The notes beneath the pieces are model-generated. The model was given only the letters and a program-made list of their open reading frames with translations. It did not search any database and was not told the origin of the DNA. 64,000 bases of DNA from Pseudomonas graminis (lineage in GTDB: Bacteria > Pseudomonadota > Gammaproteobacteria > Pseudomonadales > Pseudomonadaceae): contig NZ_MTSB01000013.1 in NCBI RefSeq assembly GCF_002093745.1, positions 140,271 to 204,270 on the forward strand, read 5' to 3'. Shown in pieces: positions 30,355 through 36,879 of the stretch. Made by a program: the position numbers and the translations under genes. The first letter of the stretch is position 1, and each line of letters begins with the position of its first letter.

Positions 30355-32046
30355 TTAGTTCTGTTTTTCCATTTGCGCGCGCAGCAGGTCACCAATGGTG
30401 GTTGGACCAGTGCTTTCAGCAACTTCAGGCTTGCTACGCAGGCTCTGGATTGCTTCTTTCTCGTCTTCAACGTCTTTCGACTTGATGGACAAGCTGATTA
30501 CGCGGCTCTTGCGGTCAACGCTGATGATCTTGGCTTCGATCTCTTCGCCTTCTTTCAGAACGTTACGCGCGTCTTCAACGCGGTCACGGCTGATTTCGGA
30601 GGCTTTGAGGGTCGCTTCGATGTCGTCGGCCAGGGTGATGATGGCGCCTTTGGCGTCAACTTCTTTAACGATACCGCGAACGATAGCGCCCTTGTCATTG
30701 ACAGTGACGTACTCGGAGAACGGATCGCTTTCCAGCTGCTTGATACCCAGCGAGATACGCTCACGCTCAGGATCAACCGACAGGATCACAGTGTCGAGCT
30801 CGTCGCCCTTCTTGAAGCGACGTACGGCTTCTTCGCCCACTTCGTTCCAGGAGATGTCGGACAGGTGAACCAGACCGTCGATGCCGCCGTCCAGACCAAT
30901 GAAGATACCGAAATCGGTGATCGACTTGATGGTGCCGGAGATTTTATCGCCCTTGTTGAACTGGCCAGAGAAATCTTCCCATGGGTTGGATTTGCACTGT
31001 TTGATGCCGAGGGAGATACGACGACGCTCTTCGTCGATGTCCAGAACCATGACTTCCACTTCGTCGCCAACCTGAACGACTTTCGAAGGGTGGATGTTCT
31101 TGTTGGTCCAGTCCATTTCGGAAACGTGTACCAGGCCTTCCACGCCTTCTTCCAGCTCTGCGAAGCAGCCGTAGTCGGTCAAGTTGGTTACACGCGCGGT
31201 GACGCGAGTGCTTTCCGGGTAACGAGCCTTGATAGCGACCCACGGGTCTTCACCCAGTTGCTTCAGACCCAGGGAAACACGATTGCGCTCGCGATCGTAC
31301 TTCAGGACCTTTACATCGATCTCATCGCCAACGTTGACGATTTCCGATGGATGCTTGATACGCTTCCAGGCCATGTCGGTGATGTGCAGCAGGCCATCGA
31401 CGCCACCCAGATCGACGAATGCGCCGTAATCGGTGAGGTTCTTGACGATACCTTTGACTTGCTGGCCTTCCTGCAGGGACTCGAGCAGAGCTTCGCGCTC
31501 GGCACTGTTCTCGGCTTCCAGGACGCTGCGACGGGAAACGACAACGTTGTTGCGCTTCTGGTCCAGCTTGATGACCTTGAACTCGAGCTCTTTGCCTTCC
31601 AGGTGAGTCGTGTCACGCACAGGGCGGACGTCAACCAGAGAACCAGGCAAGAACGCACGGATGCCGTTAACGTCGACAGTGAAGCCGCCTTTAACCTTAC
31701 CGTTGATAACGCCCTTGACCACTTCTTCAGCTGCGAAAGCCGCTTCCAGAACGATCCAGCACTCGGCACGCTTGGCTTTTTCGCGGGACAGCTTGGTTTC
31801 GCCAAAGCCATCTTCGACCGCGTCCAGCGCAACGTGAACTTCATCGCCGATCTTGATGGTCAGCTCGCCAGCGTCGTTGTGGAACTGTTCCAGCGGGATG
31901 AGGCCTTCAGATTTCAGACCGGCGTGAACCGTAACCCAACCAGCCTGGTAGTCGATATCCACGATGATAGCGGTGATGATCGAACCGGCCTGAAGGTTGA
32001 GGGTCTTTAGGCTTTCTTCAAAAAGTTCTGCAAAGCTTTCGCTCAT
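30355..32046 (-). CDS. rpsA: 30S ribosomal protein S1
   Basis: S1 is the ribosome-bound RNA chaperone that recruits mRNAs. The 563-residue protein has six S1/OB-fold repeats; typical pieces are [42 protein letters not shown] and [22 protein letters not shown]. The number and spacing match normal bacterial S1. The order cmk-rpsA-ihfB is the conserved gammaproteobacterial arrangement. Autogenous control by the rpsA leader is known for the family. Nothing in the leader here was decisive. No oddities. Confidence 0.98.
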
Positions 32047-32167: not shown

Positions 32168-32857
32168 TCACCCGGCAATATCGCGGAGTGCGATTTCGCT
32201 CAGAATGCGTTCAAGCACCTGCTCGATGGACAACTCGGTGGAATCCAGCTGTATGGCGTCATGCGCCGGCTTCAGCGGTGCTACCGCTCGCTGGGTGTCG
32301 CGCTCGTCGCGCGCACATATCTCATCTAGCAGACTCGACAGACTAACATCATCACCCTTGGCCTTCAACTGCAAGTAACGTCGACGCGCACGTTCCTCGG
32401 CACTCGCGGTGAGGAATACCTTCAGCGGTGCGTCCGGAAACACGACCGTTCCCATGTCGCGACCGTCGGCGACAAGGCCGGGCTCTTCCTGAAAAGCGCG
32501 CTGGCGCAACAGCAGGGCATCGCGTACAGCCGGCAATGAAGCCACTTGCGAAGCGCCGCTGCCGATCAGTTCATTGCGAATGGCCTGAGTGACGTCTTCA
32601 CCCTCAAGGATGATGCGCTGCCCCTGCCCTTCTTTAGTCGCCTCGAACTGAACATCCAGATGAGCGGCAAGGAGCTTGAGTGCTTCCTCGTTGGTCAGGT
32701 CCACACCGTGATTGCGCGCGGCGAAGGCCAGCAAGCGATAAAGGGCACCGGAATCAAGCAGGCACCAACCAAGCTTTCTGGCCAGCAATCCGGCAACGGT
32801 GCCTTTTCCCGAACCGCTAGGTCCGTCGATGGTAATAACCGGGGGTTTGATCTTCAC
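32168..32857 (-). CDS. cmk: Cytidylate kinase
   Basis: CMP/dCMP kinase of the nucleotide salvage pathway, cytosolic. The 229-residue protein has the P-loop [15 protein letters not shown] near residue 10. Gate-like parts are [12 protein letters not shown] near 33, [24 protein letters not shown] near 125 and a lid region [11 protein letters not shown] 32857 is chosen because GAGGA lies 6 bases upstream and because it overlaps the stop of tyrA (GTGA, four bases), pointing to translational coupling; the frame continues to 32899. It is followed by rpsA. Confidence 0.95.
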
Positions 32858-34458
32858 TTTTTGTCCTCTTGCGCTACACGCATGCCGACTTGAGCGCACA
32901 GCGCCAGAAAATGGGGAAACACTGTGGCGGCATCCGCACCGTTCTGAATACGGATGGGCGCCGAAGCCCGCAACGATGCAACACGAAACGCCATGACGAT
33001 ACGCTGATCACCGCGAGCATCAACCTCGCCGCCACCGGGCATACCGCCTTCGATAATAATGCCATCCAGCACCGGCTCGACCTCCAGGCCGAGGGCCAGC
33101 AACCCGTCGGCCATGAGCCTGATGCATTCTGTCTCACCAGCTTGCAGCGCCTGTGCGCCGCGCAGAATGGTACGCCCTTCCGCGCACGCTGCGGCAACCA
33201 TAAGCACAGGAAACGTGTCGATCGCCAGCGGCACCAGCGCTTCCGGCACATCGACACCTTTCAGCCTGGCCGAACGCACATGCAGGTCCGCAACCGTTTC
33301 GCCCGCCAGGACACGAACATTTTGCAGGACGATGTCCCCGCCCATCAGGCGCAGGATATCAATGGCACCCTCACACGCAGCGCTGACGCCGACATCCTCC
33401 AGCAACAAGTCACACCCTTCGCTGATCGACGTGGCGACCAGAAACAGTACCGCGGACGTAACATCGACCGGGCCTTTTATACGGTGACTGACGCCATCCC
33501 CGGACCTGATGCGGACATCCTGCTGATCGCCAGGCACGGTATCTACGCGAGCCCGGTTGGCGAGAATCCTGCCGAAATGCTCGCGAGCCGCACGGGCACG
33601 CGTGAAGACGTCCAGCAACTGCGGACCATCGCCTGCATCCACCGCATCGCGCAGGGCATCAAGGTCACTGCGAAAGGTGTCCAGCGTGCGCAGTACCGCC
33701 TCGCGGTTGGCCATGAAGATGTCATGCCACATGGTCGGATCACTGCCTGCAATCCGTGTGAAGTCACGAAAGCCGCCCGCAGCGTACCTGAATATATCGA
33801 GGTTTTCGTTACGCTTTGCCAGCGACTCCACCAGACCGAACGCCAGCAGGTGCGGGAGATGGCTGGTCGCAGCCAGCACTTCGTCGTGACGCTCGACCTG
33901 CATGTGCTCAACGTCGGCGCCCAGCACGGACCACAACTGATCGACGACGGCCACCGCGTGCGGATCGGTTTCAGCCAACGGGGTCAGAATGACCTTGTGC
34001 CGCCGGAACAAGGCAGCATTGGAGGCTTCGACACCGCTCTGCTCGGACCCGGCTATCGGATGCCCCGGCACAAAGCGCGACGGCATCCGACCGAACGCCT
34101 GGCGCGCAGCGCGGACCACATTGCCCTTGGCGCTGCCGACATCGGTCAGGATGGCGCTGCCCAGGTCCAGTGGCGCGAGCAGTGCGAGCAACTTTTCCAT
34201 CGCCAGAATCGGCACGGCCAGCTGAATCACGTCAGCACCGCAACAGGCCACCGCCAGATCGGCCTCGCAGCGATCTACAACACCCAGTTCGACTGCCAGC
34301 CTGCGCGACTGCGGATCAAGGTCAACGCCGACCACTTCACGGCACAGACCACTCTCGCGCACGCCTTTGGCAAAGGAGCCGCCGATCAACCCGAGACCTA
34401 CCACCACCAGCCGACCGATCACCGGCCGGGCAGGCTGTTCTGAAATCACATCAACCAC
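32854..34458 (-). CDS. tyrA: Prephenate dehydrogenase fused to a truncated, degenerate EPSP synthase domain
   Basis: The 534-residue protein starts with an intact TyrA domain (about 14-305): GLGLIGGSF at 21-29, [11 protein letters not shown] at 132-142 and [10 protein letters not shown] at 197-206. In Pseudomonas this is normally followed by a full EPSP synthase (AroA), giving about 740 residues. Here only the C-terminal half remains (about 328-534). The joint lies at SGDGVSHR (319-326), which resembles the GDKSISHR motif. The next residues, [16 protein letters not shown], align with the mid-domain GDISSSAFFLVA region. The remaining half also lost Lys340 and Arg344 equivalents (KESDR reads GETEC, 441-445) and His385 (DHR reads DQR, 484-486). 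EPSP synthase activity is therefore very unlikely. GTG 34458 has AGGTG about 8 bases upstream. Confidence 0.88.
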
Positions 34459-34515: not shown

Positions 34516-35610
34516 TCAAAGCACCGCTTTCGGGTAAGAACCCAGCACCTTCAAGGCCACGGCTTCACTGCTGATTTTCTCCAGCACGGCCTTGACCAGC
34601 GGATCCTGGTGATGCCCTACAAAGTCGATGAAGAACACGTAGGTCCACTTGCCACTGCGCGACGGGCGGGTTTCGATACGGGTCAGGTCCAGACCGCTTT
34701 CGTGGAACGGCACCAGTAATTCATGCAGCGCGCCCGGCTTGTTGCTCATCGAGACAATGATCGAGGTCTTGTCATCGCCGGTAGGCGGGACTTCCTGATT
34801 ACCGATGATGAGGAAGCGCGTGGAGTTGTCCGGGCGGTCTTCGATTTTTTCCGCCAGCCGGGTCAGACCATACAGACCTGCGGCCATGTCGCCGGCGATA
34901 GCCGCCGAGTTCCACTCGCCCTTTACCCGCTTGGCCGCCTCGGCATTGCTGGCAACGGCAACCCGCTCGACGTTCGGATAGTGAGCATCCAGCCATTTGC
35001 GGCACTGGGCCAACGACTGGGCATGGGAGTAGATACGCGAGATGCTTTGCGTCTTGGTGCTCTCGCCCACCAGCAAGTGGTGGTGAATGCGCAGCTCGAC
35101 TTCGCCACAGATGACCATGTCGTGCTCAAGAAAGCTGTCCAGCGTGTGGTTGACTGCGCCTTCGGTGGAGTTTTCCACCGGGACCACGCCAAAATTCACG
35201 GCACCGGCGACCACTTCGCGGAACACTTCGTCGATGGCCGCCATCGGCAGACTGATGACCGCATGCCCGAAGTGCTTCATGGCCGCAGCCTGAGTAAACG
35301 TGCCTTCCGGGCCGAGGTAAGCCACTTTCAGCGGCTGCTCAAGAGCCAGACAGGAAGACATGATCTCGCGGAACAGACGCGCCATTTCCTCGTTGCTCAA
35401 CGGCCCACGGTTACGCTCCATGACGCGTTTGAGGACCGCTGCCTCACGCTCCGGACGATAGAACACCGGCACTTCGCCCTCGGCCAGCGAGGACATTTTC
35501 ACCCTGGCCACTTCCTGGGCGCAGCGGGCACGCTCGCTGATCAGTTCCAGGACCTTTTCATCGAGGCTGTCGATACGGACGCGAAGCGCCTTGAGTTCTT
35601 GCTCGGACAT
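34516..35610 (-). CDS. pheA: P-protein: chorismate mutase/prephenate dehydratase
   Basis: This bifunctional cytosolic enzyme turns chorismate to phenylpyruvate. The 364-residue chain has an AroQ chorismate mutase (1-95, RVRIDSLDEKVLELISERARCAQEVARVK). A dehydratase domain follows (98-275), with VAYLGPEGTFTQAA near 98, VPVENSTEGAVNHTLD near 152 and RFLIIGNQ near 250. A regulatory ACT domain ends the chain (282-364), with SNKPGALHELL and LTRIETRPSR that bind phenylalanine. ATG 35610 overlaps the serC stop by one base (TGATG). In P. aeruginosa hisC2 lies between pheA and tyrA; here only 57 bases separate them. Confidence 0.95.
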   Translation of the reverse strand: MSEQELKALRVRIDSLDEKVLELISERARCAQEVARVKMSSLAEGEVPVFYRPEREAAVLKRVMERNRGPLSNEEMARLFREIMSSCLALEQPLKVAYLGPEGTFTQAAAMKHFGHAVISLPMAAIDEVFREVVAGAVNFGVVPVENSTEGAVNHTLDSFLEHDMVICGEVELRIHHHLLVGESTKTQSISRIYSHAQSLAQCRKWLDAHYPNVERVAVASNAEAAKRVKGEWNSAAIAGDMAAGLYGLTRLAEKIEDRPDNSTRFLIIGNQEVPPTGDDKTSIIVSMSNKPGALHELLVPFHESGLDLTRIETRPSRSGKWTYVFFIDFVGHHQDPLVKAVLEKISSEAVALKVLGSYPKAVL

Positions 35611-36695
35611 CAGCCGTGCTCCTTCTCGAAGTCTTTCATGTAGGCCACCAATGCATTGACCGCATTGATATCGACCGCGTTGTAGATGGAGGCGCGCATG
35701 CCACCGACCGAACGATGGCCTTTCAGGTTGAGCAGGCCATTCGCGTCGGCGCCCGCCAGGAAAGGCTTGTCGAGGCGGTCGTCGGCCAGGCGGAACGGCA
35801 CGTTCATCCACGAACGGTCCGGCTTGTTGATCGGGTTGCTGTACAGCCCGCTGGCGTCGATGAAGTCATACAGCGTGCGCTGCTTGATGTCATTGAGCTT
35901 GCCAATCGCCTCGACGCCGCCCTGCTCCTTCAGCCATTCGAAGACCAGCCCTGACAGGTACCAGGCCAGGGTTGGCGGCGTGTTGTACATCGAGCCGTTG
36001 TCGGCAGCGACCTTGTAGTTGAGCATGGTCGGGCACAACGATCGCGCACGACCCAGCAGGTCCTCGCGAATGATCACGACCACAATACCGCTCGGCCCGA
36101 TGTTTTTCTGGGCACCGGCGTAGATCATGCCGAAGCGTGAAATGTCCACTGGACGCGAGAGGATGTCCGAAGACATGTCGGCGACCAGCGGCACGTCACC
36201 GGTTTCCGGAATCCAGTTGAATTCCAGGCCACCGATGGTCTCGTTCGGCGCGTAGTGAACGTAGGCCGCGTCTTTGGACAGCTTCCATTCGTTCTGGCCG
36301 GGGATGGCGAAGTAATCATAGGCCTTGGCGCTGGCGGCAACGTTGACTGCGCCATAACGCGACGCTTCTTCAATAGCCTTCTGCGACCAGATACCGGTGT
36401 CGATGTAGTCGGCCTTGCCGCCTTCGGGCAGCAGGTTCAAGGCAATCTGTGCGAACTGCTGGCTGGCGCCGCCTTGCAGGAACAACACCTTGTAATTAGA
36501 AGGAATGGACAGCAGGTCGCGCAGATCCTGCTCGGCCTTGGTGGCGATGGAGACGAACTCGTCACTGCGGTGACTCATCTCCATGACAGACAGGCCTTTG
36601 CCGTGCCAGTCGAGGAGCTCCGCCTGGGCACGCAGCAGAACAGCTTCAGGAAGCGCAGCAGGACCTGCGCAGAAGTTAAAGGCTCGCTTGCTCAT
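35610..36695 (-). CDS. serC: Phosphoserine aminotransferase
   Basis: The PLP enzyme makes phosphoserine for serine and also 3-hydroxy-4-phosphothreonine for pyridoxal phosphate. The 361-residue protein begins FNFCAGPAALP, with LFLQGGASQQFA near 76. The PLP lysine is in YAGAQKNIGPSG near 198, and the C-terminal motif GHRSVGGMRASIYNA near 332. The length matches the family. ATG 36695 is used; a GTG or ATG at 36710 is unsupported. Its stop overlaps pheA by one base, so the two are co-translated. Confidence 0.96.
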   Translation of the reverse strand: MSKRAFNFCAGPAALPEAVLLRAQAELLDWHGKGLSVMEMSHRSDEFVSIATKAEQDLRDLLSIPSNYKVLFLQGGASQQFAQIALNLLPEGGKADYIDTGIWSQKAIEEASRYGAVNVAASAKAYDYFAIPGQNEWKLSKDAAYVHYAPNETIGGLEFNWIPETGDVPLVADMSSDILSRPVDISRFGMIYAGAQKNIGPSGIVVVIIREDLLGRARSLCPTMLNYKVAADNGSMYNTPPTLAWYLSGLVFEWLKEQGGVEAIGKLNDIKQRTLYDFIDASGLYSNPINKPDRSWMNVPFRLADDRLDKPFLAGADANGLLNLKGHRSVGGMRASIYNAVDINAVNALVAYMKDFEKEHG

Positions 36696-36879
36696 ATCCA
36701 CTCTCGTCAAATACGTTGGGTCTGTACGCGCTTGTTTCTGGATGCTGCATCACGGGCTGAGCGCCCGTGACAGGAATTCCGATCCGACTCAGGCGGGCCG
36801 AATGCCGCAAGGGCTGGACTTGCCGGCGATGCAGATGCAATCACAGACGAGCCAGCCCTTACCTGATTGACGTTACCAC

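Follow-up and report, generated by a model that had tools for sequence, protein, structure and literature searches.

The tyrA-aroA' gene of Pseudomonas graminis encodes the dehydrogenase TyrA fused to one half of a 5-enolpyruvylshikimate-3-phosphate (EPSP) synthase. We analysed it within a window of 64,000 nucleotides (contig NZ_MTSB01000013.1, positions 140,271 to 204,270), where it occupies positions 32854..34458 of the reverse strand, the strand on which all features given below lie. The retained half domain has lost one of the two globular domains of the synthase, and it is under purifying selection. The trait is not peculiar to this genome; it is fixed in a whole clade, and its core, the deletion of half the domain together with the presence of a stand-alone gene, was already published in 2005.

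In the passages on which we draw, Song et al. (2005, BMC Biol 3:13, PMC1173090) describe a deletion of about 200 residues in the TyrA-AroF fusion of P. syringae, AroF being EPSP synthase, and an acquired stand-alone gene, which they link to Agrobacterium; the remnant is suggested there as a possible new regulatory domain. Whereas those passages treat one P. syringae genome, call the event recent and in one place a C-terminal truncation, and state that the rest of the clade lacks the stand-alone gene, the present analysis covers the whole clade, points to a single old event and finds the gene in 117 genomes out of the 398 compared across the genus. It goes beyond them in placing the borders of the deletion at the structural central domain, in timing it after the stand-alone gene, in measuring selection and in recognising parallel losses. 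The evidence for a half domain still held in frame, and probably folded, adds to the 2005 description as well. A literature search, with most subscription journals outside it, found no paper on the remnant later than that of Song et al.

The truncated fusion and its clade

The gene starts with GTG, ends with TGA (32856-32854) and is open over 534 amino acids. Residues 1-298 (33565..34458) form the TyrA part, a prephenate/cyclohexadienyl dehydrogenase with PDH_N (123.2 bits) and PDH_C (99.3 bits) both above the Pfam cut-offs; its SHLPH motif, the His of which we take to be catalytic, is invariant across 49 aligned sequences. On its sequence, the prephenate dehydrogenase part of the protein is present. 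A linker with a remnant of the first EPSP synthase strand follows (residues 299-325; 33484..33564), with the deletion at its 3' end (about 33483-33486), and the C-terminal, terminal-domain half of the synthase makes up residues 326-534 (32857..33483). Pfam EPSP_synthase (PF00275) matches residues 322-518 at profile positions 227-414 of 417 only, and the protein scores 715.1 bits with the bifunctional TyrA/AroA model NF011381, under its cut-off of 902. The loss of about 210 residues in a continuous frame, proposed from the window alone, is thus confirmed: 213 codons are absent relative to full-length relatives of 747 amino acids, such as that of genome G018 (L018/L084).

The short form is colinear with the long one through S324 and picks up again at R326, the counterpart of R539 in the long form; H325 at the junction can be assigned to either side. 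By alignment the deleted stretch corresponds to about 14-235 in E. coli numbering. As defined in the relevant part of PMC8983318, the central domain of the E. coli enzyme comprises residues 21-241, and the terminal domain residues 1-20 and 242-427. The deletion therefore removed the central domain almost exactly and left the terminal domain. Of the substrate-binding residues that had been listed as lost, those within the deleted central domain are indeed gone.

The active-site changes read from the window also hold. KESDR reads GETEC and DHR reads DQR, so that the equivalents of K340, D343, R344 and H385 are changed, while D242, D313, E341 and R386 are kept. Among the 12 half-domain genomes of the genus, K340 and H385 are changed in all and R344 in 11; E341 is kept in 11 and R386 in all 12. 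At position 340 the residue differs among species (D, E, T, G, A or S). With one globular domain gone and active-site residues changed, the 534-residue protein no longer appears to qualify as an EPSP synthase.

These 12 genomes, from a sample of 398 in which fusion state was taken from listed match rows and per-genome match counts, align with the window protein over its whole length. An alignment of TyrA-AroA proteins from many Pseudomonas, recommended by the initial annotation, places the deletion in a single clade: in a tree built from the TyrA core of 68 loci, the 12 are monophyletic with support 100. The half domain was also found in eight named genomes (P. tremae, P. congelans, P. caricapapayae, P. 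cerasi, P. avellanae, P. amygdali, P. syringae pv. cilantro and strain KUIN-1); two of these assemblies are complete chromosomes. In five of the eight the gene is identical to one of the 12, leaving 15 distinct sequences among 20, of 531-538 amino acids. P. tremae and pv. cilantro are closest to the window across 8-10 kb (90.3%). Because the 12 genus genomes and eight named genomes have an identical junction, in 15 distinct sequences and two complete chromosomes, it is not a product of chance or misassembly. An artefact of assembly or annotation, the event that might have overturned the observation, has a negligible probability, and no evidence supporting it was found.

The sister pair of the clade (G018 and G370) has a full-length fusion with KESDR intact and carries the stand-alone gene; P. 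capsici, just outside the clade, is likewise full length with KESDR. Such relatives date the loss and do not refute it. Synonymous divergence at the junction (codons 281-360) is 0.58-0.70, similar to the rest of the gene. Since it is not reduced there, the deletion is old in the clade, as had been suspected, and a recent deletion or spread by recombination is ruled out. One genome labelled as the same species as the window genome (G020, locus L086) has a gyrA only 89% identical to it, against 92-95% in four half-domain genomes, and its label looks wrong.

The stand-alone gene and the fate of the fused domain

PF00275 finds three proteins in the window genome: MurA, the half domain and a stand-alone AroA (P0002; 418 amino acids, C40:46741-47994). 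P0002 scores 351.6 bits with TIGR01356 (cut-off 287.25) over profile positions 1-413 of 415 and is therefore complete. It keeps the equivalents of E. coli K22, S23, R27, R124, S169, S170, Q171, D313, K340, E341, R344, H385, R386 and K411; among the active-site residues checked it departs by Ala at 197 and by changes at 101 and 337. The second aroA anticipated elsewhere in the genome thus exists and looks acquired. As complete EPSP synthases, P0002 and its relatives would have taken over the reaction.

The solved enzymes nearest to the stand-alone AroA by sequence are of the V. cholerae/E. coli type and not of the fused domain's type, the half domain being nearest to the enzymes of Acinetobacter, Coxiella and CP4. 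The suggestion that the replacement might be a class II enzyme finds no support, and the assignment is probably the reverse, class being judged here by similarity alone.

Relatives of P0002 (E <= 1e-60) are present in 117 of the 398 genomes, including all 12 with the half domain; three matches are partial (G235, G359 with a stop, and G020, split by the start of a record). The PGSKS, KECDR and DHR motifs were found in 41 of 41 stand-alone genes checked. Among the genomes compared, the flanks of the gene are common to G000, G066, G018, G026, G149 and two plasmids, and elsewhere only the gene itself matches. Because these five genomes share the flanks, the stand-alone gene predates the deletion. 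The pattern suggests that this lineage acquired the gene once, ahead of the deletion, and that elsewhere it was inserted or moved separately. G022 has an intact fusion and no stand-alone gene and is nested among carriers, which suggests that it lost its copy.

The gene is also found on plasmids. Those of P. asturiensis (L144, 8001-9257) and of a Pseudomonas sp. (L145, 8001-9263) have the same response-regulator and PAS genes upstream of aroA, matching the flanks in the window genome. An Erwinia persicina plasmid typed as conjugative (L146, NZ_CP146503.1, 3927-13502) carries a stand-alone aroA 69.7% identical to P0002, which adjoins a class 1 integron integrase gene and Tn402-like tni genes. 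A P. putida strain with two aroA genes, one of them foreign, is on record in a passage of PMC3097199.

The state of the fusion follows the stand-alone gene. The 117 carriers comprise 12 genomes with the half domain, 15 with TyrA alone, 89 with a full-length fusion and one that is unresolved (G080). Of the 281 genomes lacking the gene, 148 were examined one by one: 147 have a full-length fusion and one a frame-broken full-length gene (G076). Among the other 133, G284 and G366 have no TyrA match and the rest at least two matches; the 27 genomes with a single match in the per-genome table are exactly the 12 half-domain and 15 TyrA-only genomes. The association gives a Fisher p of 4e-11, a value that ignores shared ancestry. 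The frame-broken genes of G076 and G080 (L161 and L162) come from less well assembled genomes and probably reflect sequence errors.

The losses represent at least four events on the TyrA-core tree. The TyrA-only proteins (L089-L103) are 309-323 amino acids long, and, unlike in the window protein, the whole EPSP synthase part is gone; what the two forms share is the loss of the fused function in the presence of a stand-alone AroA. They form a clade of ten, a group of three and G023 next to a full-length relative, and the placement of G336 near the root is unresolved. Of 17 active-site positions compared, none is changed in the 45 full-length loci without the stand-alone gene, and at least one is changed in 6 of 51 with it and in all 12 half domains; the frame-broken L117 (G080) was dropped from this alignment and count. 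The six eroded full-length fusions are L086, L087, L105, L108, L116 and L122, all in genomes with the stand-alone gene.

Selection on the half domain and its overlap with cmk

The ratio of nonsynonymous to synonymous substitution rates (dN/dS, omega) was estimated with a purpose-written codon-model script rather than a standard package, for a half-domain set of 20 sequences of which five are duplicates. The pairwise analysis was limited to pairs with dS from 0.05 to 1.5, which kept 170 and 185 of the 190 half-clade pairs. Omega of the terminal domain rises from 0.027-0.040 in fusions without a stand-alone gene to 0.051-0.083 with one and intact motifs; eroded fusions have 0.080-0.155, and the half domain reaches 0.161 (0.132-0.197). 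The values for TyrA remain at 0.019-0.053 across the sets, with 0.042 in the half-domain clade. The full-length AroA-positive sets show no sign that the terminal half was additionally constrained as a TyrA partner before the deletion: except in G149/G181 (0.128 central, 0.080 terminal), its freedom to vary about equals or exceeds that of the central domain.

The proposed estimate of dN/dS for the half domain thus rejects neutrality, omega of 1 being excluded (twice the log-likelihood difference is 533). Under neutrality about 39 nonsense changes would be expected, and none is present in the 20 sequences. A neutral relic on its way out is therefore very unlikely: the catalytic residues are gone in all 12 genomes and relaxation is graded across lineages, as plain decay would have it, but the deletion is old and the half domain shows neither stops nor an omega near 1. 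Sites differ in rate, from 0.10 at hydrophobic positions, the slowest class, to 0.40 at the eight active-site positions, the fastest, in an analysis with the tree scale fixed, of which the class ratios alone are used, and with eight eroded or repeat loci left out of the consensus. This pattern agrees with a domain that has given up catalysis and still has to fold. That the half still aids EPSP synthesis, for instance paired with the stand-alone enzyme, is extremely improbable; the D242, E341 (11 of 12) and R386 (12 of 12) equivalents remain, yet the central domain and most of the catalytic residues discussed above (K340 and H385 throughout, R344 in 11 of 12) are lost or changed, and the stand-alone AroA is complete.

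The stop of tyrA-aroA' and the GTG start of cmk, a (d)CMP kinase gene (TIGR00017; 32168..32857), overlap in GTGA (32854..32857), and a probable cmk Shine-Dalgarno sequence, AAGAGGA (32864..32870), lies inside the last tyrA-aroA' codons. Synonymous sites are nearly invariant in the last 14 codons (32854-32895): pS is 0.09-0.16 over codons 521-534, against 0.40-0.70 in most windows of the gene, which is consistent with an embedded ribosome-binding site for cmk. The GTGA overlap noted in the window recurs in 12 of 12 half-domain and 8 of 8 named loci, in 11 of 15 TyrA-only loci and in 50 of 51 and 37 of 45 full-length loci; the nine full-length loci without it end in ATGA. AGAGG or AGGAG is present in 12 of 12, 8 of 8, 11 of 15, 50 of 51 and 45 of 45 of the same sets. 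In the 11 TyrA-only loci the deletion ends in such a way that the overlap is kept. The window protein thus resembles the full-length Pseudomonas fusion in its TyrA part, linker, terminal half and cmk overlap, and differs in its length, its score below the family cut-off and its catalytic residues.

The neighbouring genes, named by NCBIfam, run in the order gyrA, serC (35610..36710), pheA (34516..35610), tyrA-aroA', cmk, rpsA (ribosomal protein S1, 30355..32046) and ihfB. pheA is of the chorismate mutase/prephenate dehydratase type; the general prephenate dehydratase model NF008865 passes its cut-off and the bifunctional model NF007910 fails.

Persistence of the half domain

As the comparisons show, the ancestor of the P. 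syringae group had a normal TyrA-EPSP synthase fusion and a stand-alone EPSP synthase gene. The second aroA made the fused domain dispensable, and a single in-frame deletion took the central domain, so that only the terminal domain now follows TyrA. This remnant then shed catalytic residues while staying open and conserved through the radiation of the group. The stand-alone AroA presumably now runs chorismate synthesis, TyrA would still work, and the remnant may be a folded, non-catalytic C-terminal module.

The likeliest cause of its persistence, and one to which we give somewhat better than even chances, would be a trap. The remnant would be a displaced, non-catalytic domain that sits between TyrA and cmk-rpsA and is translated through, coupled to these genes by its last codons. 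Stops and frameshifts in it would be selected against because they would uncouple cmk-rpsA; its removal would take an exact in-frame deletion like those of the TyrA-only lineages; and while it is translated, it would have to fold to spare TyrA harm. Translational coupling as the sole cause of conservation is rejected, since it leaves the amino acid constraint unexplained and the overlap survives in 11 of the 15 TyrA-only loci, where the domain is gone. Several observations weigh against the trap. Constraint in the half domain extends to polar sites (about 0.22), which is more than bare maintenance of the fold demands. Four TyrA-only loci (L100-L103) have lost the overlap with cmk, and so coupling is not indispensable everywhere. 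The AroA tree groups the half clade only weakly (support 63, the plasmid copy from P. asturiensis falling within the group; 37 for the superclade), and the trap is itself something we infer from comparisons of sequences.

The selection data also fit a new positive function. On this reading an AroA gained by horizontal transfer would have displaced the fused synthase, and the terminal domain would have become a non-catalytic component of TyrA, regulatory or structural, or a scaffold, which selection maintains for its new role. Such exaptation is possible, and we regard it as rather doubtful. In its favour, constraint at an omega of 0.161 is spread across all segments of the half domain, polar sites included, no stops occur in the 20 sequences, and the half was retained through the radiation of the group where other lineages removed it altogether. 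Yet omega is relaxed to roughly fourfold the TyrA value within these genes, the substrate-binding residues vary freely among species (position 340, for example), no conserved new motif was identified, and 15 genomes do without the half domain. Because these 15 have TyrA with no EPSP synthase part, the half is not obligatory to TyrA, and its retention for stabilising TyrA, as initially proposed, would not be an obligatory role.

The label "bifunctional" is wrong for the TyrA-half-EPSP synthase protein in the P. syringae group. Since the remnant is shown to be under purifying selection, the 2005 speculation of a new domain can now be tested. The fusion provides a dated and replicated case of a second gene displacing a fused enzyme domain, in which the fused domain was lost or eroded only where a second gene was found, by routes that include deletion of one half, clean loss and erosion of the active site.
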